64,000 bases of DNA, from positions 434,001 to 498,000 of the forward strand of contig NZ_CP107921.1 of the NCBI RefSeq assembly GCF_036014215.1, written 5' to 3'. Below, in pieces: positions 7,765 through 33,440 of the stretch. Source of the stretch: Streptomyces sp. NBC_00440 (GTDB lineage: Bacteria; Actinomycetota; Actinomycetes; Streptomycetales; Streptomycetaceae). The notes under the pieces were generated by a model. The model did no database searches. It was not told the DNA's origin and worked only from the letters and a program-made list of their open reading frames with translations. Numbering within the stretch: the first letter of the stretch is position 1; the number at the start of each line of letters is the position of its first letter. A program made the translations under genes and the position numbers.

Positions 7765-7832
7765 CCCGGTACCACCCGCCGTTCAGCCGGAAGTCACCCG
7801 CTGCCCATGATTTGGCTCCCCCCAGGGCACCG

Positions 7833-7848
7833 TCTACAGTCCTGTAGA
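7833..7848. promoter_or_regulatory. BlaI-type operator before the PAP2 phosphatase gene
   Basis: TCTACAGTCCTGTAGA, arms of 7 bp with TACA/TGTA half-sites separated by 4 nt. It lies 75 nt before the PAP2 start and is almost identical to the element at 31230-31247 before the response regulator gene. TACA/TGTA inverted repeats are the recognition element of the BlaI/MecI/CopY family. The downstream arm merges into TAGATA, a possible -10, so binding would block transcription. Confidence 0.6.
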
Positions 7849-7922
7849 TACATGTCAGACCGTGGATGCCGCACGTCTCCCGCGGAGCGGGCAGCCCCGA
7901 CCGAGCTGAGAGTTCCCGCCTG

Positions 7923-8570
7923 ATGACTGCTGTCTCCCCGATGCCGCTGGCCTTCAACGGCTCTCACATCGACGGTTCGCTGTTCACCACCGTCACGGAC
8001 TTCGCACGTGACACCCGGTGGCTGAACGCGCCGCTGGAATCGTGGACCAACATCGGTCTGGGCGTGTTCGCGATCCTCATGATCGTCGGGTGGTGGCAGG
8101 CCCGGCGCCGCGACAGCGCGTCGATGGCTCTCGCCCTGGCCGTGCCGGTGAGCGTCGTGGTCGCCTTCGCCGCGGCCGAGGTGGTCAAGAAGCTCGTGTC
8201 GGAGGTGCGGCCCTGCCGCTCGATGCCGCACGCGTTCATCGTCGAGACCTGCCCGGCCCCGTCCGACTTCGCTTTCCCCAGCGGTCACACCACGACGGCA
8301 GCGGCGACCGTCGCCGCCCTCTACCTGCTGAACCGGAAGCTGTGCGCCATCGCCGCCCTTTTCGCGCTCTTCGAGGGCTTCACCCGCGTCTACGTCGGCG
8401 CGCACTACCCCCACGACGTCCTCGGCTCGGCCCTCCTCGCCCTGCCCATCGCATTCCTGACCAGCCTGGCCCTGCGCCGCCTGGCCACCCCGCTGGTCGA
8501 GCGGCTGCGTACCGGAGTCCTGGCTCCCGTCCTGACGGCGGGACCGGCCGGCGCCCACGCGGCCGGCTGA
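7923..8570 (+). CDS. PAP2-family membrane phosphatase
   Basis: 215-residue integral membrane phosphatase of the type-2 phosphatidic acid phosphatase family, with about six hydrophobic segments. All three catalytic motifs are present: K90-x5-RP (R96), PSGHT at 119-123 and R155-x5-H161 with the following HD. Such enzymes dephosphorylate lipid phosphates such as undecaprenyl pyrophosphate or phosphatidic acid at the outer membrane face. The ATG at 7923 is chosen because the N-terminal extension to 7866 is unlike the family. A BlaI-like operator precedes the gene, tying it to the envelope gene set at 27-32 kb. Confidence 0.92.
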   Translation: MTAVSPMPLAFNGSHIDGSLFTTVTDFARDTRWLNAPLESWTNIGLGVFAILMIVGWWQARRRDSASMALALAVPVSVVVAFAAAEVVKKLVSEVRPCRSMPHAFIVETCPAPSDFAFPSGHTTTAAATVAALYLLNRKLCAIAALFALFEGFTRVYVGAHYPHDVLGSALLALPIAFLTSLALRRLATPLVERLRTGVLAPVLTAGPAGAHAAG

Positions 8571-27317: not shown

Positions 27318-28238
27318 TCAGCGGGCCTGCGTGGTGGTGTGGGAGGACGTAGCACTGTCGAACAGCTGGTCCATGTCGTGGGCGGCCAGGGCAAGGCTGG
27401 CGCAGCACACCATCATCAAGGCCGGGAACACCATGGCCAGACCTCGGCGGAAGGGTGTGGGCGCGGCGAGCAGGGCTCGTACGCGTTGGGGCACCGGTCC
27501 GCCGGTGGCCGCGAGTGCTGGTTGCGGGGTGCGCTTGGTGGCGAGCGCTGCCCGCGCGACAGCGCGGGCGACGAGGCCGCGGTCGGCTACGACGGTGCCC
27601 GCTTCTTCGTCGGCCCAGCGTTCCAGTGCGAACGCACCCGCTCGGGCAAGGGGGCGCAGGAGTGGGTTGACTGCTGCCGCGAGTTGGAGGACGAGCAGGA
27701 ACAGATGGTGGCGGCGGTGGAGATGGGCGCGTTCGTGGGCCAGCAGGGCGCGCCGTTCATCGGGGGTGAGTGCTTGCAGCATGCCGGATGAGACCACGAT
27801 CCGGCCCGGAGTTCCGGGCAGGGCGAAGGCCGTGGGCACAGGGTCTTCGAGCACGGCCAGGTCTCCGGCGGCGGGAAGGTCCCGGCAGTCGCGCCGGGTG
27901 TCGACAAGGACCCTCACCCGGCGCCAGGCCGTCACGGTCAGGGTGACCGCACAGATGAGTACACCCAGTGTGCAAGCGGCGGCGACAGGCCGGCTGATGG
28001 GGGTGTCGGTGGCGAGCAGGCGGGGAGACCAGCGCCCCTCCTCGGCCACCTCCGGGTCCTGGCCGACCAGGGTGAAACCCGCCATCGCCAGTACTGTCAC
28101 CCACGCGCCGGCGGCTGTCACGGCGGCGGAGGCGAGCGTCCAGGCTGCCGTCCGTGGTGGCAGCCTCCGGGCGGCCCACGGCGCGGTCAGCGTGAGAATC
28201 AGGCTGACCAGCAGCGGTGTACACAGACTGATCCACAC
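27318..28238 (-). CDS. M56-family membrane metallopeptidase (BlaR1/MecR1-like)
   Basis: 306-residue membrane zinc peptidase with three N-terminal hydrophobic segments, the zinc motif LLAHERAHL (HExxH) at about residue 187 and downstream E-R-W-A-D-E-E-A as the third-ligand region, then a final membrane helix. There is no extracellular penicillin-binding domain, unlike staphylococcal BlaR1, so the signal sensed is unknown. The GTG start lies 3 nt after the BlaI stop. M56 peptidases inactivate the partner BlaI repressor by proteolysis, giving a two-gene induction switch. Confidence 0.93.
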   Translation of the reverse strand: MWISLCTPLLVSLILTLTAPWAARRLPPRTAAWTLASAAVTAAGAWVTVLAMAGFTLVGQDPEVAEEGRWSPRLLATDTPISRPVAAACTLGVLICAVTLTVTAWRRVRVLVDTRRDCRDLPAAGDLAVLEDPVPTAFALPGTPGRIVVSSGMLQALTPDERRALLAHERAHLHRRHHLFLLVLQLAAAVNPLLRPLARAGAFALERWADEEAGTVVADRGLVARAVARAALATKRTPQPALAATGGPVPQRVRALLAAPTPFRRGLAMVFPALMMVCCASLALAAHDMDQLFDSATSSHTTTQAR

Positions 28239-28241
28239 CGT

Positions 28242-28634
28242 CTAGTCCTCCGCTGGTCCGTGCAGCAGCTGCTCCAGCAGTTGCTCGTCCTCGGCCGGAA
28301 GCTCGGAGACGAACCGGGCGAGGACGGCAGCCCGGTCTCCACCACGGTCCAGCAGGTCGCGCATTCCTGCCGCGGTGTGCCCGGCCTTGTCCTGGACCGG
28401 TGAGTACAGGTAGCTGCGGCCGGAGCGCTCACGGGTCACCAGGCGTTTGTCGTGCAGCCTGGTCAGGATCGTCAGGACGGTCGTGTAAGCGGGGTCACCG
28501 GCCACCTGTTCACGTACCGTGCTCGCGCCCACCGGCCTTCCCGCCGCCCACAGGGCCGCCAGGACTTCGCTCTCCAGTTCGCCGGGCGCCCGTCGGCCTG
28601 CCCCCGCAGCGCCCTGCCCGCTCACGCTTCCCAC
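28242..28634 (-). CDS. BlaI/MecI-family repressor
   Basis: 130-residue winged-helix repressor. The signature region is LESEVLAALWAAGRPVGASTVREQ and the wing PAYTTVLTILTRLHDKRLVTRERSGRSYLYSP; the C-terminal helices form the dimer and the protease-sensitive region. It precedes the M56 peptidase gene by 3 nt in one operon. A TACA/TGTA element at 28741-28755, about 107 nt upstream, is the likely autoregulatory site, and related elements appear at 31.0-31.25 kb and 7.83 kb. Start taken as GTG 28634. Confidence 0.95.
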   Translation of the reverse strand: MGSVSGQGAAGAGRRAPGELESEVLAALWAAGRPVGASTVREQVAGDPAYTTVLTILTRLHDKRLVTRERSGRSYLYSPVQDKAGHTAAGMRDLLDRGGDRAAVLARFVSELPAEDEQLLEQLLHGPAED

Positions 28635-28733
28635 CGTTGTTCACCACCCCTTGTCGTCGGCACCCCGCGACCCACCACCGGACCTGGTCGTCGGCCTCGG
28701 TCGTTGACTGACATGACGGAGTGCACGGAGCAC

Positions 28734-29516
28734 TCAAGGTACTACACCCTGTAGAAAGGACCGCGCGGGTGCTCCCTGCTCCAGCGGGCTCGTACAGGTG
28801 TGATCGCGAAGCGGTCCGACCCTCAGACCGCCTTCTCGGCAGGTGTCGAGGATGCGGGGCAGCGCACCGAGGGTGTTGCGCCAGGATCCGGTGGCGGAGG
28901 TGCAGTCGGAGTCATGCAGCAGGATGGTGGCTCCGCCGCGCAGATCGCGGGCGACAGTGTCGTAGACGGAATCCGGTGTCGCCCGGGCACGCCAGTCCTC
29001 GCCCCAGGCGCTCCACAGGACCGGCGTCAGGCCGAGACGGCGGCATGCCAGGTATGTGCCGGTGGTCATGACGCCGTAGGGGGGCCGGAACAGACGGGGC
29101 AGGGTGCCGGTGAGGCCGCCGATCGTGTCGCGGGCACGGGCCAGATCGTCGTACGTGGCCCGGGGGCCCCGCAACAGCAGCGGGCGGTGGGCCCAGCCGT
29201 GGACCGCGATCTCGTGCCCGGCGCCGTGCATGGCTTTCACCAGCCGGGGTGAGCGCACCGCCATGGAGCCGAGCAGGAAGAACGTCGCGCACAACTCCCG
29301 GGTTTCCAGCAGACGCAGGAAATGCGGGGTGGAGAGGTGGTCGGGGCCGTCGTCGAAGGTGAGCGCGACGTGGCCGGATCGCCCTCGGCCGGAGAGGCGG
29401 GGCATGAGCCGGTTGCGCAGCGGCCCGAAGGTGGAGATGACCGGCGCGGCGTGCAGGGCGGCGAGCGCGGGCAGCGTCACGGCTCCGGCGCGCAGGAGGG
29501 TTCGGGCCGTGGTCAT
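28734..29516 (-). CDS. Polysaccharide deacetylase (NodB domain)
   Basis: 260-residue carbohydrate esterase 4 protein. The NodB catalytic motifs are TFDDGPD (T53-F-D-D-G-P) and the zinc-ligand H106-G-W-A-H110, followed by RPPYG and a LLHDSD motif. The N-terminal hydrophobic segment (residues 5-30) is a likely signal or anchor, so it would de-N-acetylate a cell-surface glycan or glycolipid. Its start overlaps the upstream glycosyltransferase stop by 4 nt (ATGA). The BlaI operator of the next gene overlaps its last codons. Confidence 0.93.
   Translation of the reverse strand: MTTARTLLRAGAVTLPALAALHAAPVISTFGPLRNRLMPRLSGRGRSGHVALTFDDGPDHLSTPHFLRLLETRELCATFFLLGSMAVRSPRLVKAMHGAGHEIAVHGWAHRPLLLRGPRATYDDLARARDTIGGLTGTLPRLFRPPYGVMTTGTYLACRRLGLTPVLWSAWGEDWRARATPDSVYDTVARDLRGGATILLHDSDCTSATGSWRNTLGALPRILDTCREGGLRVGPLRDHTCTSPLEQGAPARSFLQGVVP
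28741..28755. promoter_or_regulatory. BlaI operator upstream of blaI-M56
   Basis: ACTACA-CCC-TGTAGA, TACA/TGTA half-sites with a 3-nt spacer, 107 nt before the BlaI start and overlapping the end of the deacetylase gene. Same half-sites and spacing as the elements at 31012 and 31136. Confidence 0.65.
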
Positions 29517-30868
29517 CGTTCGTGTCCGTCCAGGAATCGGGTGAGTGCGCCCAGGTGCGCCGGGGAGTCGCCGTATGCCTCGGCCATCGGGGCGCCGACG
29601 CCGAGCAGCACGGTGGCCGCGACCGCAGCGGTCACGACCGGGACTCCGAGGCGTACGCGTCGGCCGGGACGTCGGACCATGGAGCTCTCCGCCCTGTCCC
29701 GAAGGGGAACTGCGCCCTTCGCCACGGCGGCCACGGCTTGCACCGGGCCGTCGCCGGGGCGGAACAACTGCAGCCCCCGGGCGCGCTGTTGGTGGCCGAG
29801 GGAGCCGTGGAGCAGTTCGTCGAGTACCGGCTTGAGGGAGGCTGGATCCTGGATCCAGGTGGCGAGACCGGCCTCCTGGAGTGCGGCGGCGTTGGTCTGT
29901 CCGTGACCGGGTATGCAGCGGTAGCTCGCGACCGGCAGGCCGCTGGCGAATGCCTCCAGCGAGGTGAGGCCGCCCGCGTTCTGCACCAGGACGTCAGCGG
30001 CGGACATGAGGTCCGGCATGTCATCCACCCAGCCGTACACATGCTCGACACCGGCCTTGCGGAGGCGTTCGGCCAGGGCCTCGTTCCTGCCGCACACCAC
30101 GACGGGCACCGCGGAACCGCTCTCCTGGATCTCGGCGGCCACCTGCTCCACAGGACCCACCCCCCAGGAACCGGCGACCAGCAGCGCGAGTGGGGACCGT
30201 TCGGGGAGAGCGAAGCGGACGCGTGCCGCACGCCGTTCCTCGACGGTGGCGGGGGTGAATCGGGCGGCAGCCACCGGGCCGGTCACCGTGACCCCGGCGG
30301 CACCCTGGACGTGAGCCTGTCCGGCCGGTATCGCGTGTACGGCGAGGTGTACGTCGACACCGGACGCGACCCACAGGGAGTGGACGGAGAAGTCGGTGAG
30401 GTAGGTGATGGCGGGCACCCCGAGAAGCCCTCGCGAGCGCATCGCGCCGAGCACTTGACCGGCTCCGGGGTAGGTCGAGACGACCGCGCGAGTATCGGGG
30501 GTGATGGCCCGCAGGGTACGGCGCTCCGCGCTACGGAACAGGGAGCGGACCAGGAGCCCCGGGCGCCCGGTGCGTTCGGTGGCGGCGTAGATCCGCTGAT
30601 ATCCCGTGGGCGCCCAGGTGAGCAGCCGGTGGTATCCGCCGGACAGCAGCCTCCCCAGCCGGGCGGGCAGCAGATCGAGGAAGTCATGCCGATCCACAAG
30701 AATCCCGGCGGCCTGGAGGCCTCGCGCCAGTTCGTCGGCCGCGCCGTCATGCCCCGCGCCCACACTCGCCGAAATGATCACGACCCGAGGGGCGGACGGC
30801 GTCCGCGGCCGGACGTCGGACGACGGCGGGGGAGCCCACGCCTTCGCAGGATTGCCACGGTGGGGCAC
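29513..30868 (-). CDS. MGDG-synthase-like glycosyltransferase with C-terminal membrane helix
   Basis: 451-residue GT-B glycosyltransferase of the MGDG synthase/UgtP type (family GT28). The N-terminal domain carries the acceptor-side motif SASVGAGHDGAA (about residues 33-44) and the C-terminal donor domain contains YGWVDDMPDLMSAAD and VQNAGGLTSLEAFASGLP. Such enzymes transfer a sugar to a lipid such as diacylglycerol. Unusually, a single hydrophobic helix (about 410-430) follows the catalytic domains. The gene is translationally coupled to the polysaccharide deacetylase, suggesting that the transferred sugar (perhaps GlcNAc) is then deacetylated. GTG start at 30868. Confidence 0.9.
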   Translation of the reverse strand: MPHRGNPAKAWAPPPSSDVRPRTPSAPRVVIISASVGAGHDGAADELARGLQAAGILVDRHDFLDLLPARLGRLLSGGYHRLLTWAPTGYQRIYAATERTGRPGLLVRSLFRSAERRTLRAITPDTRAVVSTYPGAGQVLGAMRSRGLLGVPAITYLTDFSVHSLWVASGVDVHLAVHAIPAGQAHVQGAAGVTVTGPVAAARFTPATVEERRAARVRFALPERSPLALLVAGSWGVGPVEQVAAEIQESGSAVPVVVCGRNEALAERLRKAGVEHVYGWVDDMPDLMSAADVLVQNAGGLTSLEAFASGLPVASYRCIPGHGQTNAAALQEAGLATWIQDPASLKPVLDELLHGSLGHQQRARGLQLFRPGDGPVQAVAAVAKGAVPLRDRAESSMVRRPGRRVRLGVPVVTAAVAATVLLGVGAPMAEAYGDSPAHLGALTRFLDGHER

Positions 30869-31011
30869 AGCCGATCAGCCTCCATGCTGGAAAGGGCGCG
30901 AAAGGGAATTGCCTCGGTCGCATCGGCGAGCCGCGGTTAAAGGCGTGCGAGGACGGCGCCGCCCGGAACGGTCTGCTTGCTCGGGCCGGAGCGGGGGCCG
31001 CCGCCGAAACT

Positions 31012-31026
31012 ACTACATGATGTAGA
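31012..31026. promoter_or_regulatory. BlaI-type operator, glycosyltransferase side
   Basis: ACTACA-TGA-TGTAGA, 3-nt spacer, 144 nt before the glycosyltransferase start. Nearly identical to the element at 31135 and to the blaI operator. Confidence 0.65.
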
Positions 31027-31134
31027 ACTATGGGAACGTACATCGCGACGAGCCCCGAACCCCCGGCGGCAGCCGCAACCACACGTGTGCACATGTCGGC
31101 ACAGGCGTCGACACGCGGCATGCACGCAGGAAAC

Positions 31135-31150
31135 TACTACACGATGTAGA
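31135..31150. promoter_or_regulatory. BlaI-type operator, central copy
   Basis: TACTACA-CGA-TGTAGA, 3-nt spacer, 124 nt from the previous copy. Could act on either divergent promoter or allow looping. Confidence 0.65.
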
Positions 31151-31229
31151 GGCGCGACGGAGGAGGCACCCCAGGGGGCCCGCCGGGCATTTCACAGCAG
31201 GCACCCCGGAATCCCCACTTCCAGCTATC

Positions 31230-31247
31230 GTCTACAGTCATGTAGAC
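31230..31247. promoter_or_regulatory. BlaI-type operator, response-regulator side
   Basis: GTCTACAGTCATGTAGAC, 7-bp arms with a 4-nt spacer, 161 nt before the response regulator start. Nearly identical to the element before the PAP2 gene at 7833. Confidence 0.65.
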
Positions 31248-31407
31248 AATGGGTTCAGGTGTCAGGTGGAGTCACTCCGGTCCGGTCTGCTTCCCCTCGC
31301 ACGATCCGGCGCCCGAGCACGCCTCTCGCCCCGCACCGGTCCCCACCTCATCCGCCGGCCGACGGCCCAGCCGCTCCATCGAGAACCGCAGAAAGGAGAC
31401 CCGAGCC

Positions 31408-32073
31408 GTGCAGCAGCAGAGGATCCTGGTCGTCGAGGACGATCACGCCTTGCGGGACGTCCTGCGGCGCGGCCTGCGCGACGAGGGCTTCGAGACGGTC
31501 TCCGCACCTGACGGCGCGAGCGCCCTGCGGCTGGCGACAGCCGACATCGACGGGGTGGTGCTGGACGTGGGACTGCCCGATGCCGACGGACGGGATGTGT
31601 GCCAGGCACTGCGGGCGAACGGTTTCCTCTCCCCCGTCGTCTTCCTGACCGCCCATCACCGGCTCACCGACCGGCTGACCGGATTCTCGGCGGGCGGCGA
31701 CGACTACCTGCCGAAACCGTTCCATCTCGCCGAGCTCGCCGCCAGGTTGCGGGCCGCACTCAAGCGGACCGGACCACCCTCCCCCACCGCGACGGGCGAC
31801 CTGGTCCTGGACGCCGTCCGGCACTCGATGACGGTCCGGGGCACCTCAGCCGGGCTGACCCCGACGGAGTTCCGACTGCTGGCCGCACTCATGGCAGCGG
31901 CGGGGGCGATCGTCCGCAGGCGCGAGCTGATCAGGGCGGGCTGGCCGGAGGGCGCCCAGGTCAGTGACAACACCCTGGACCAGTACCTCACCCGGCTGCG
32001 CCGGAAGCTCCGCGACGCGGGCAGCGAGCTGACGATCAGCACCGCGCGCGGTGTCGGTCACCGCCTCTCATGA
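31408..32073 (+). CDS. OmpR-family response regulator
   Basis: 221-residue two-component regulator: receiver domain with acidic pocket VVEDD, phospho-acceptor D53 (VLDVGLPD) and the KPF lysine, then a winged-helix trans_reg_C domain (LTPTEFRLLAALM and the C-terminal RGVGHRLS). GTG 31408 is chosen because AAAGGAG ends 9 nt before it; the longer frame from ATG 31249 begins directly beside the BlaI element. The stop overlaps the kinase start (ATGA). Confidence 0.95.
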   Translation: MQQQRILVVEDDHALRDVLRRGLRDEGFETVSAPDGASALRLATADIDGVVLDVGLPDADGRDVCQALRANGFLSPVVFLTAHHRLTDRLTGFSAGGDDYLPKPFHLAELAARLRAALKRTGPPSPTATGDLVLDAVRHSMTVRGTSAGLTPTEFRLLAALMAAAGAIVRRRELIRAGWPEGAQVSDNTLDQYLTRLRRKLRDAGSELTISTARGVGHRLS

Positions 32074-33440
32074 CAGCCCGTCCGACCTGCTGGTGGCCAC
32101 GCACCCTGCGCGGCCGGCTCTCCCTGGTCGCGGTGGCCACCGCCCTGTTGCTGATGGCGATCCTCACTGTCGTCTTCAATACGATCGTCCAGCAGCGCCT
32201 CCAGCACCAGGCCGACGACCATCTGCGCACCCGGGCCACCGCTGTCGCCACGACGGTCGACACGGTTGGCGGCTCCGTAAGAGTGCTGGAATCGCCGAAC
32301 GACACACTGCTGGACGACAACGTGTGGATCTACGCGGGCGGGCTCCTGCTCGAACATCCGCCGAACAGCTCCGATGTGCAGCCCCTCACCCGCGCCGCAG
32401 ACACCCTCGCCGGACACGGCGGGCAGGGCTGCACCACCCTGCACACCGGCAGAACGGTCCGGCTGTGTGCCGTGGCCGTCCCGACGACCGACGGCGCCGC
32501 ACCTCGCGCAGTCGTGGTCACCGCACTGGACCTCGCGCCCTACCTCAGCTCCGCCGACACCATGCTCTTCGCGTCCATCGCACTGGACATCACCATGCTG
32601 GCCTGCACCTACGCCCTCACCCGACTGGCAGTGGGGCGGGCACTGCGCCCGGTGCACACCATGACGGACCAGGCCACCCGATGGAGTGCCGCCGACTCCG
32701 ACGAACGCTTCCGCGGCAGAGCGGGTCCGACCGAACTCACCCAACTGGGCAGCTCGTTGGACGCGCTCCTGGACCGCATACGGGCGGTGCTGCGACACGA
32801 GCAGCAGCTGACCAAGGAGCTGTCGCACGAGCTGCGCAATCCACTGGCCAGGATCGTCGCCGAACTCGACTGGTTGCAGGCCCGTCCCCGTTCGGCGCAG
32901 GACACCCGCACCTGCCACCTGGCCGTCGCCGACGCCGCGCAGTCCATGCAGGCGATCTGCGAGACCCTGCTGGACGACGCGCGCGCGGGCGCTCGCAGCA
33001 CACCCGGCACCGCCGTCGTGCTGCCGGTGCTGAACCGGCTGGCCGAGGGCCCGAATGGCCCCCGCACTCCGGGGCTCACCGTCGTGGGTGGAGACCCGGA
33101 AGTATCTGCCGGGGTCTCCCCCGCGTTGCTCGAACGCATCGTCGGCCCGCTCCTCGACAACGGTCTGCGCCATGCCGAATCGGGCGTCAGCCTGCACGCT
33201 TCCCGCCTGCCGGACGGCGTACGGATCGAGGTCACCGATGACGGGCCCGGCGTGCCGGAGCCGTTCGTGCCGTACCTGTTCCACCCCGGGCGGCGCGCTG
33301 CCCCCGACGACGAGCACACCGGAGCGGGCCTCGGCCTGTCGCTCGCGCGACGCCTGGCCCGCTCCGCGGGTGGTGATGTGCGTTACGACGAACTGCACAC
33401 CACCGGTGCACGGTTCGTGGTCAGTCTGCCGACCGGATGA
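32070..33440 (+). CDS. Sensor histidine kinase
   Basis: 456-residue membrane kinase: two membrane helices (about residues 17-42 and 167-190) flank an extracytoplasmic sensor loop of about 125 residues with two Cys. A HAMP segment follows, then HisKA with H253 in ELSHELRNPL and HATPase_c with N-box (PLLDNGLRHA), DDGPGVP and GAGLGLSLA. It is the partner of the OmpR regulator encoded immediately upstream, with overlapping start. Signal unknown; the setting with BlaI-type operators and envelope enzymes suggests a cell-surface cue. The last 20 nt overlap the convergent COG4705 gene. Confidence 0.95.
   Translation: MTARPTCWWPRTLRGRLSLVAVATALLLMAILTVVFNTIVQQRLQHQADDHLRTRATAVATTVDTVGGSVRVLESPNDTLLDDNVWIYAGGLLLEHPPNSSDVQPLTRAADTLAGHGGQGCTTLHTGRTVRLCAVAVPTTDGAAPRAVVVTALDLAPYLSSADTMLFASIALDITMLACTYALTRLAVGRALRPVHTMTDQATRWSAADSDERFRGRAGPTELTQLGSSLDALLDRIRAVLRHEQQLTKELSHELRNPLARIVAELDWLQARPRSAQDTRTCHLAVADAAQSMQAICETLLDDARAGARSTPGTAVVLPVLNRLAEGPNGPRTPGLTVVGGDPEVSAGVSPALLERIVGPLLDNGLRHAESGVSLHASRLPDGVRIEVTDDGPGVPEPFVPYLFHPGRRAAPDDEHTGAGLGLSLARRLARSAGGDVRYDELHTTGARFVVSLPTG

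Follow-up and report, generated by a model that had tools for sequence, protein, structure and literature searches.

A cluster of inverted repeats in Streptomyces sp. NBC_00440 raises the question of how many repressors act on a short island of envelope-related genes. The repeats have TACA/TGTA half-sites (hereafter dyads) and lie within a 64-kb stretch of NZ_CP107921.1 (the window; whole genome 8.68 Mb), around genes for a BlaI-family repressor and a membrane protease, a glycosyltransferase–deacetylase operon and a divergent two-component system. The first-pass annotation of this DNA had placed all of these under one protease-relieved BlaI, and this is probably wrong. We consider it likely that two paralogous BlaI–protease systems meet here: BlaI-A, acting on dyads with a spacer of 3 nucleotides (nt), and BlaI-B, acting on dyads with a 4-nt spacer, each putatively relieved by its protease.

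Dyads in the Window

The five TACA/TGTA repeats reported earlier, four of them between 28.7 and 31.3 kb, are present, with coordinates correct to a few bases. TACA-N(0-6)-TGTA occurs at six places in the 64 kb (7835, 28743, 31014, 31138 and 31233, plus 53441 with a 6-nt spacer), compared with a mean of 0.18 and a maximum of 2 in 100 dinucleotide shuffles. For the longer half-sites CTACA/TGTAG, a scan of every spacer from 0 to 8 nt returns exactly five dyads in the window, and no exact spacer other than 3 nt (28742, 31013, 31137) or 4 nt (7834, 31232). This difference in spacer was absent from the first-pass annotation. Flanking GTC/GAC trinucleotides are complete at the 31232 site and nearly so at 7834, upstream of a PAP2 gene, and only about 80 bp separate the 3-nt dyad at 31137 from the 4-nt one at 31232. 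The site placed "before blaI" (28741) is real, but overlaps the 3′ end of the deacetylase open reading frame, the stop codon of which occupies 28734–28736. The predicted operators are as follows.

28742..28754, unstranded: predicted class A operator upstream of blaI-A, 3-nt spacer; edged by a −10-like TACCTT directed towards blaI
31013..31025, unstranded: predicted class A operator, 3-nt spacer; −10-like TAGTTT towards the glycosyltransferase; kept in relatives
31137..31149, unstranded: predicted class A operator, 3-nt spacer, second copy; orientation as 31013
31230..31247, unstranded: predicted class B operator GTCTACA-N4-TGTAGAC; internal −10-like TACAGT towards the response regulator; assigned to BlaI-B by clade association
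7832..7849, unstranded: predicted class B operator, second in the window; one mismatch in the 18-mer

Operator Spacer and BlaI Phylogeny

Upstream regions were compared for 130 distinct blaI genes, after identical BlaI core sequences and genes with fewer than 250 bases upstream had been dropped; the loci were drawn from among the matches listed, 80 of them by place and some via sites or neighbours, and clade frequencies are not those of a random sample. Exact dyads with spacer 3 precede 11 of these genes and exact dyads with spacer 4 precede 54; the remaining spacers between 0 and 8 nt yield no exact dyad before any of the 130, nor is there an exact match of the reversed control, and CTACA-N2-TGTAG is found before none of them at up to one mismatch.

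Spacer length is partitioned by clade. At up to one mismatch, 12 of the 17 clade A genes have a 3-nt dyad upstream, one has a 4-nt dyad and four have none; in clade B, 37/42 have a 4-nt dyad, none a 3-nt dyad and five neither; and in clade E the 4-nt dyad is found in 40/62, the 3-nt dyad in none, and 22 lack both. In a larger tree, which includes 10 further genes and other added blaI sequences, A, B, and E each form one branch, with Shimodaira–Hasegawa-like approximate likelihood ratio test (SH-aLRT) support of 96, 98, and 99. The 17 rows of clade A were initially picked manually in the first tree, and exactly these 17 of the 130 fall in the clade A branch of the larger one. Clade B includes the second BlaI of the window's own genome (L011), with SH-aLRT support of 96 in the first tree (42 rows) and 98 in the larger tree, and the ten most borderline clade B matches, all of them fetched, fall inside it. 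Six of the 42 clade B loci were fetched via their class B site; 31 of the 36 others carry the 4-nt dyad. Treatment of all TACA/TGTA sites as a single class was rejected by this analysis.

Co-occurrence across 121 genomes of the genus points the same way: all four genomes with the class A 18-mer have BlaI-A, itself present in 7/121 (hypergeometric p 4e-6), and all 14 with the class B 18-mer have BlaI-B, itself present in 41/121 (p 5e-8), both p values ignoring shared ancestry.

Besides that caveat, several observations weigh against a strict correspondence between spacer and clade. At one mismatch, some blaI genes have spacers of 0, 1, or 6 nt (5, 10, and 8 genes, respectively), and 4/17 clade A genes have no dyad at all. 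Exact dyads are fewer: 10/17 with 3 nt in clade A (plus one with 4 nt), 19/42 with 4 nt in clade B, and 33/62 with 4 nt in clade E. The first tree leaves clade A as an unresolved fork, and only in the larger tree does it become one branch. Its member L056 was scored as 4-nt, though it also has one-mismatch 3-nt dyads, and among five further distinct A-like genes, one-mismatch 3-nt dyads precede two (L214, L220) and a one-mismatch 4-nt dyad precedes a third (L221), the remaining two being without either (L211, L212). The window genome's own BlaI-B has no dyad upstream of its gene, its specificity being taken from the clade. Finally, all seven BlaI-A genomes also hold BlaI-B, such that co-occurrence cannot always separate the two.

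Two positions in what is presumably the recognition helix separate clade A from clade B (Y47/R47, L51/T51), and are no more than a lead. A rule based on position 83 failed, as judged by eye, on a small clade with CCCTACA-N3-TGTAGGG dyads.

That small clade (L136, L189, L167, L177, L231, L238) has dyads of the CCCTACA-N3-TGTAGGG type, and in L136 and L189 its blaI lies beside a large gene that is, by eye, membrane glycosyltransferase-like. A similar large glycosyltransferase-like gene in G084 has the class A 18-mer upstream (L048). Clade E (L062:1453-2634, L073, L180, and others) is a third BlaI–protease clade, often with dyads resembling AATCTACA-N4-TGTAGAAG upstream, and has a gene identified by eye as TerD-like in its vicinity in 25/62.

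The Proposed Class A System

BlaI-A and its neighbours in the island are encoded on one strand, and the regulator–kinase pair diverges from the glycosyltransferase side.

27318..28238, minus strand: membrane zinc protease, BlaR1-like, without sensor domain, 306 amino acids, HERAH at 168; PF01435 (M48) above and PF05569 (M56) below cut-off; five hydrophobic segments
28242..28634, minus strand: blaI-A repressor, clade A by the trees; PF03965, 85.6 bits (cut-off 22.6)
28734..29516, minus strand: NodB-type polysaccharide deacetylase; PF01522, 102 bits (cut-off 23.1)
29513..30868, minus strand: glycosyltransferase of the UgtP/MGDG synthase kind, with a C-terminal hydrophobic segment; NCBIfam and PDB similarity

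The "blaI-M56" pair of the first-pass annotation holds as a BlaI-family repressor gene with a membrane zinc protease gene, but the protease scores under the cut-off for M56 (PF05569, 22.5 bits; cut-off 31) and above that for M48 (PF01435, 55 bits; cut-off 20.3), an outcome repeated in 6/6 protease homologues scanned. No extracellular penicillin-binding sensor domain was found in the window protease, for which PF01435 and PF05569 are the only matches at E 0.001. The highest-scoring NCBIfam model for the glycosyltransferase is diglucosyl diacylglycerol synthase (NF010135; 104.6 bits, below the equivalog cut-off of 500), and its PDB matches include a processive diacylglycerol glucosyltransferase (2.9e-16) and MGDG synthase 1 (7.2e-12). 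PDB relatives of the deacetylase include peptidoglycan and chitin deacetylases.

The link between dyads and this operon, as drawn earlier, is conserved. In all 16 loci found with a relative of the glycosyltransferase, the deacetylase gene is next to it, and in 12/16 the 450 bp preceding the glycosyltransferase contain a 3-nt dyad, which is exact in 11 and has one mismatch in the twelfth. Conversely, 14 of the 15 exact 3-nt dyads in 227 kb are in the upstream region of a glycosyltransferase gene and the other precedes blaI; some of the former are shared with a divergent blaI or PAP2 gene. A BlaI of 58–100% identity is encoded within 3 kb of the operon in 9/16 loci. Three loci with a class A site have no blaI within 3 kb (L018, L019, L028), and their genomes hold a clade A BlaI elsewhere. 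The four loci without a class A site (L017, L023, L026, L027) belong to genomes in which no clade A BlaI was found, a few matches of 38–39% identity lying outside the tree; L017 has a one-mismatch 4-nt dyad upstream. L015, also from Streptomyces, is a near-copy of the window island and not independent of it.

From the side of the repressor, a relative of the protease is encoded within about 2 kb of all 17 clade A genes. The glycosyltransferase is near 13/17, although 10 of those 13 are the window itself or were fetched via the glycosyltransferase; among the six loci fetched via BlaI (L053–L058), it lies within 2 kb in three and, by position, within 3.3 kb in the other three.

The Proposed Class B System

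The second BlaI–protease pair of the genome (L011, clade B) is at C1:7149.9 kb, 6.7 Mb from the island, and its protease shares 46% identity with the window protease. Putative members of its gene set in the window, with a neighbouring gene, are as follows.

31408..32073, plus strand: OmpR-type response regulator; PF00072, PF00486; relatives in DedA/PAP2-linked loci
32070..33440, plus strand: sensor histidine kinase; PF00512, PF02518, PF00672
33421..34269, minus strand: DUF347 membrane protein; PF03988, 211.9 bits; converges on the kinase gene, an arrangement shared by several relatives
7923..8570, plus strand: PAP2-family phosphatase, preceded by the 7832 operator; ATG at 7923; PF01569, 67.3 bits (score of a longer reading, L001:1533-2237)

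GTCTACA-N4-TGTAGAC occurs in 14/121 genus genomes, the reversed pattern matching once, in the window's own genome. Of 16 class B 18-mers outside this genome, 15 were fetched (14 distinct loci; G045:C14:160330 was left out), and all 15 flank genes for UppP, DedA, PAP2, or DUF347, several lying between divergent blaI and DedA genes. UppP, PAP2, and DedA act in undecaprenyl-phosphate recycling. Within about 2 kb of the 42 clade B genes are DedA in 20, a protease in 36, and the glycosyltransferase in none. Across 296 genomes of the class, the class B 18-mer was found in five genomes, representing 2/114 genera; its sole occurrence outside the genus Streptomyces in this set is L207 (G267:C4:1851936).

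Tandem 4-nt dyads 19 bp apart were observed between divergent blaI-B and DedA genes in L036 (sites 1503 and 1522) and L039; the embedded TACAGT faces opposite ways in the two copies of L036, and in L039 it is found only in the DedA-facing copy. The window genome encodes two further BlaI-family proteins, both without a dyad upstream of their genes: L013 (C1:4619.5 kb) adjoins an Lsr2-like gene, and L014 (C1:7613.8 kb) adjoins a P-type ATPase gene (neighbours named by eye) and a protease gene.

The Two-Component System and Alternative Readings of the Dyads

Which BlaI the response regulator belongs to can be judged from its close relatives (at least 64% identity; 27 loci, own included). DedA or PAP2 is encoded within 1.5 kb in 17/27; seven more, the window's among them, carry a 4-nt dyad with no more than one mismatch inside 600 bp; and of the remaining three, one has DUF347 only and two have none of DedA, PAP2, a 4-nt dyad, or DUF347. 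A clade B BlaI is encoded within 10 kb on the same contig in 17/27. All 24 of the 121 genomes with a close regulator hold BlaI-B (six of them also BlaI-A). Because of this, and because its relatives are linked to DedA, PAP2, and the 4-nt dyad, the regulator–kinase pair is assigned to the gene set of BlaI-B. The near-identical L015 is the only one of the 16 glycosyltransferase loci that likewise adjoins this two-component system, and the placement of the pair next to the glycosyltransferase island has the look of a local rearrangement. Thus, the earlier proposal that the two-component system is under BlaI control stands insofar as regulation by a BlaI is likely, but it would be by a different BlaI, perhaps responding to a different signal.

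It could still be argued that one BlaI (28242–28634) binds all four dyads of the island, tolerating spacers of 3 and 4 nt, and controls both the glycolipid operon and the two-component system. The half-sites are the same, the four sites lie inside 2.5 kb, and 31137 is close to the 4-nt site. Furthermore, a more distant regulator–kinase pair (~51% identity) is divergent from clade A blaI in G084, G033, and L028, with one-mismatch 3-nt dyads in G033, and L110 has a distant pair preceded by an exact dyad of each spacer, 3 nt and 4 nt. Nevertheless, we regard control by one BlaI as unlikely: the spacer is clade-specific, the 31230 site has the 4-nt spacer and GTCTACA/TGTAGAC flanks of clade B, and BlaI-A is missing from 12 of the 14 genomes with class B sites. 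Moreover, at up to one mismatch, only the window has a 3-nt dyad inside the 600 bp around the regulator and the 26 other loci have none, although a 600-bp scan misses the operon promoter where the regulator gene sits inside a longer operon.

Among the loci in which the distant pair diverges from clade A blaI (L028:756-1926, L111, L056), one-mismatch 3-nt dyads separate the two in L056 (G033), and the other two loci have only dyads judged by eye to be weaker. Two-component/BlaI wiring therefore seems to occur with both clades.

Autoregulation is a very unlikely account of the 31230 dyad. OmpR-type regulators often autoregulate, and the dyad does lie before the regulator gene; yet the same 18-mer precedes DedA, PAP2, UppP, and DUF347 genes and lies between divergent blaI-B and DedA genes, and the regulator has no match at E 1e-45 in 7 of the 14 genomes that carry this 18-mer (G003, G023, G029, G038, G045, G064, G078).

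Site counts over the whole genome weigh against any reading that relies on number. CTACA-N(2-4)-TGTAG occurs at 10 places, four of them in the 2.5-kb cluster, whereas the reversed control pattern occurs at 23, and at two mismatches the counts are not above the reversed control either (10 vs. 12; 4/3 vs. 10/6). Because the reversed control is equally common or commoner, the genome-wide count by itself proves nothing and was rejected as proof; the weight rests on clustering, promoter position, and conservation. A reading of the dyads as features of promoters or of chance, with no repressor involved, would fit these counts but is scarcely credible, given that they are kept before the same gene families in different species, that their spacer is tied to the blaI clade, and that no exact dyad of other spacer precedes the 130 blaI genes.

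Elsewhere in the genome, the exact 3-nt form occurs only on the second contig (0.28 Mb). The exact 4-nt form occurs at three further places: C1:6965.5 kb (before DUF347), C1:6781.2 kb (before a membrane-protein gene), and C1:4320.2 kb (in a coding frame); additionally, a DedA–PAP2 unit at C1:6967.8 kb is preceded by a 4-nt site with one mismatch in the 18-mer. C1:6781198 is a possible further class B member, with two mismatches in the 18-mer; no Pfam family scored above cut-off for the membrane-protein gene behind it. Placed outside both regulons were the 3-nt plasmid site C2:130348, the 2-nt site C1:1237090 (with a TetR-like neighbour, by eye), and C1:4320154, within a coding frame. A separate inverted repeat, TTTCTACAGCTGTAGAAA, next to a TetR-like gene (by eye) at L006:1420-1590, is likely an unrelated operator.

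Proposed Mechanism

The sites, their spacers, and their association with BlaI clades and gene sets were computed here; binding, repression, cleavage, and signal are inferred. BlaI-A (28242–28634) would bind CTACA-N3-TGTAG at the −10 of the glycosyltransferase–deacetylase operon (31013, 31137) and repress it, and would also bind 28742, repressing its own blaI–protease pair. BlaI-B would bind GTCTACA-N4-TGTAGAC at 31230 and repress the regulator–kinase pair, as well as the PAP2 gene at 7.9 kb and the DedA–PAP2 and DUF347 units near 6.97 Mb. The 31137 and 31230 sites may permit cross-talk between the two repressors.

Sequences at the dyads are consistent with repression by occlusion, in that a bound repressor would cover the −10. 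Among 20 aligned class A sites (read towards the glycosyltransferase, in one case blaI), six continue as TGTAG-TAGNTT, including 31013 and 31137, two more as TGTAG-TA(A/C)CTT, and four of divergent layout have TAGAGT at the dyad edge, all −10-like. Read towards the target, 14 of 19 aligned class B sites have CTACAGT, which yields a −10-like TACAGT; the second tandem copy of L036 has TACAGT towards blaI. Against this, no canonical −35 boxes were seen by eye at the aligned sites, and the promoter reading is tentative for that reason.

In each system, the partner membrane zinc protease would cut its BlaI and so relieve repression, as described for BlaR1 (PMC9834060; PMC7593790). Protease-relieved control of the envelope is plausible. 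The BlaI-A system probably serves a membrane glycolipid, its targets looking like glycolipid-modifying enzymes, and the BlaI-B system probably serves the recycling of the lipid carrier of cell-wall parts. Because class B sites lie near undecaprenyl-phosphate recycling genes and the targets of BlaI-A appear to be glycolipid-modifying, stress on the envelope or on the lipid carrier, and not beta-lactams as such, probably provides the signals.

A broader generalization is possible, though we hold it more tentatively than the two-system reading: Streptomyces BlaI–protease pairs without a beta-lactam sensor may be envelope or lipid-carrier stress switches kept apart by an operator code of spacer and flank (3-nt for glycolipid; GTC-4-nt-GAC for undecaprenyl-phosphate recycling and the two-component system; AAT-4-nt-GAA for terD-linked genes), with two codes sharing a single divergent promoter region in this strain, so that a second sensor is connected to two proteolytic switches. 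Sensor-less BlaI switches appear tied to lipid-carrier recycling genes (UppP, DedA, PAP2) and to a likely glycolipid pathway; if so, they offer a direct and testable route to how Streptomyces senses attack on its lipid carrier. With sequence as its only input, the spacer rule predicts the BlaI paralogue that controls a given promoter, and the clades form a natural set in which to study how cross-talk between paralogous repressors is avoided. This wider set of spacer-coded, apparently beta-lactam-independent BlaI systems is of more interest than the window island itself.

Comparison With Known Systems

The glycosyltransferase is similar in sequence to UgtP and MGDG synthase, and differs from UgtP in scoring far under the equivalog cut-off, in its C-terminal hydrophobic segment, and in its deacetylase neighbour (16/16 loci). 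CopY/TcrY copper repressors share the PF03965 family with the window BlaI, which scores 31.6 bits against a TIGR02698 cut-off of 121.95; a separate paralogue lies beside the P-type ATPase gene (L014). Mycobacterium tuberculosis BlaI (Rv1846c, with Rv1845c) is likewise an actinobacterial BlaI. At E 0.001, the window BlaI has a single relative in the PDB, 2g9w, which is labelled a "conserved hypothetical protein" and which we take to be Rv1846c; the operator of M. tuberculosis BlaI was reportedly described by Sala in 2009, and its regulon genes presumably differ from those here. Among the titles listed from the open-access literature, none describes a Streptomyces BlaI together with DedA or PAP2, or with operators of this kind.

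Beta-lactam resistance is the main context in which BlaI-type switches are known. No beta-lactamase or penicillin-binding protein gene was recognised in the island or among the site neighbours seen, no genome-wide search for such genes having been made. The BlaI/MecI–BlaR1/MecR1 systems of staphylococci and bacilli resemble the island in having a PF03965 repressor gene beside a gene for a HEXXH membrane zinc protease, and in having dyads with TACA/TGTA half-sites at both their own and their target promoters. They differ from it as follows: the window protease lacks the penicillin-binding sensor domain of BlaR1 and scores above cut-off as M48 and below it as M56, and the half-sites, separated by 2 nt in the known BlaI/MecI systems, are separated here by 3 or 4 nt.

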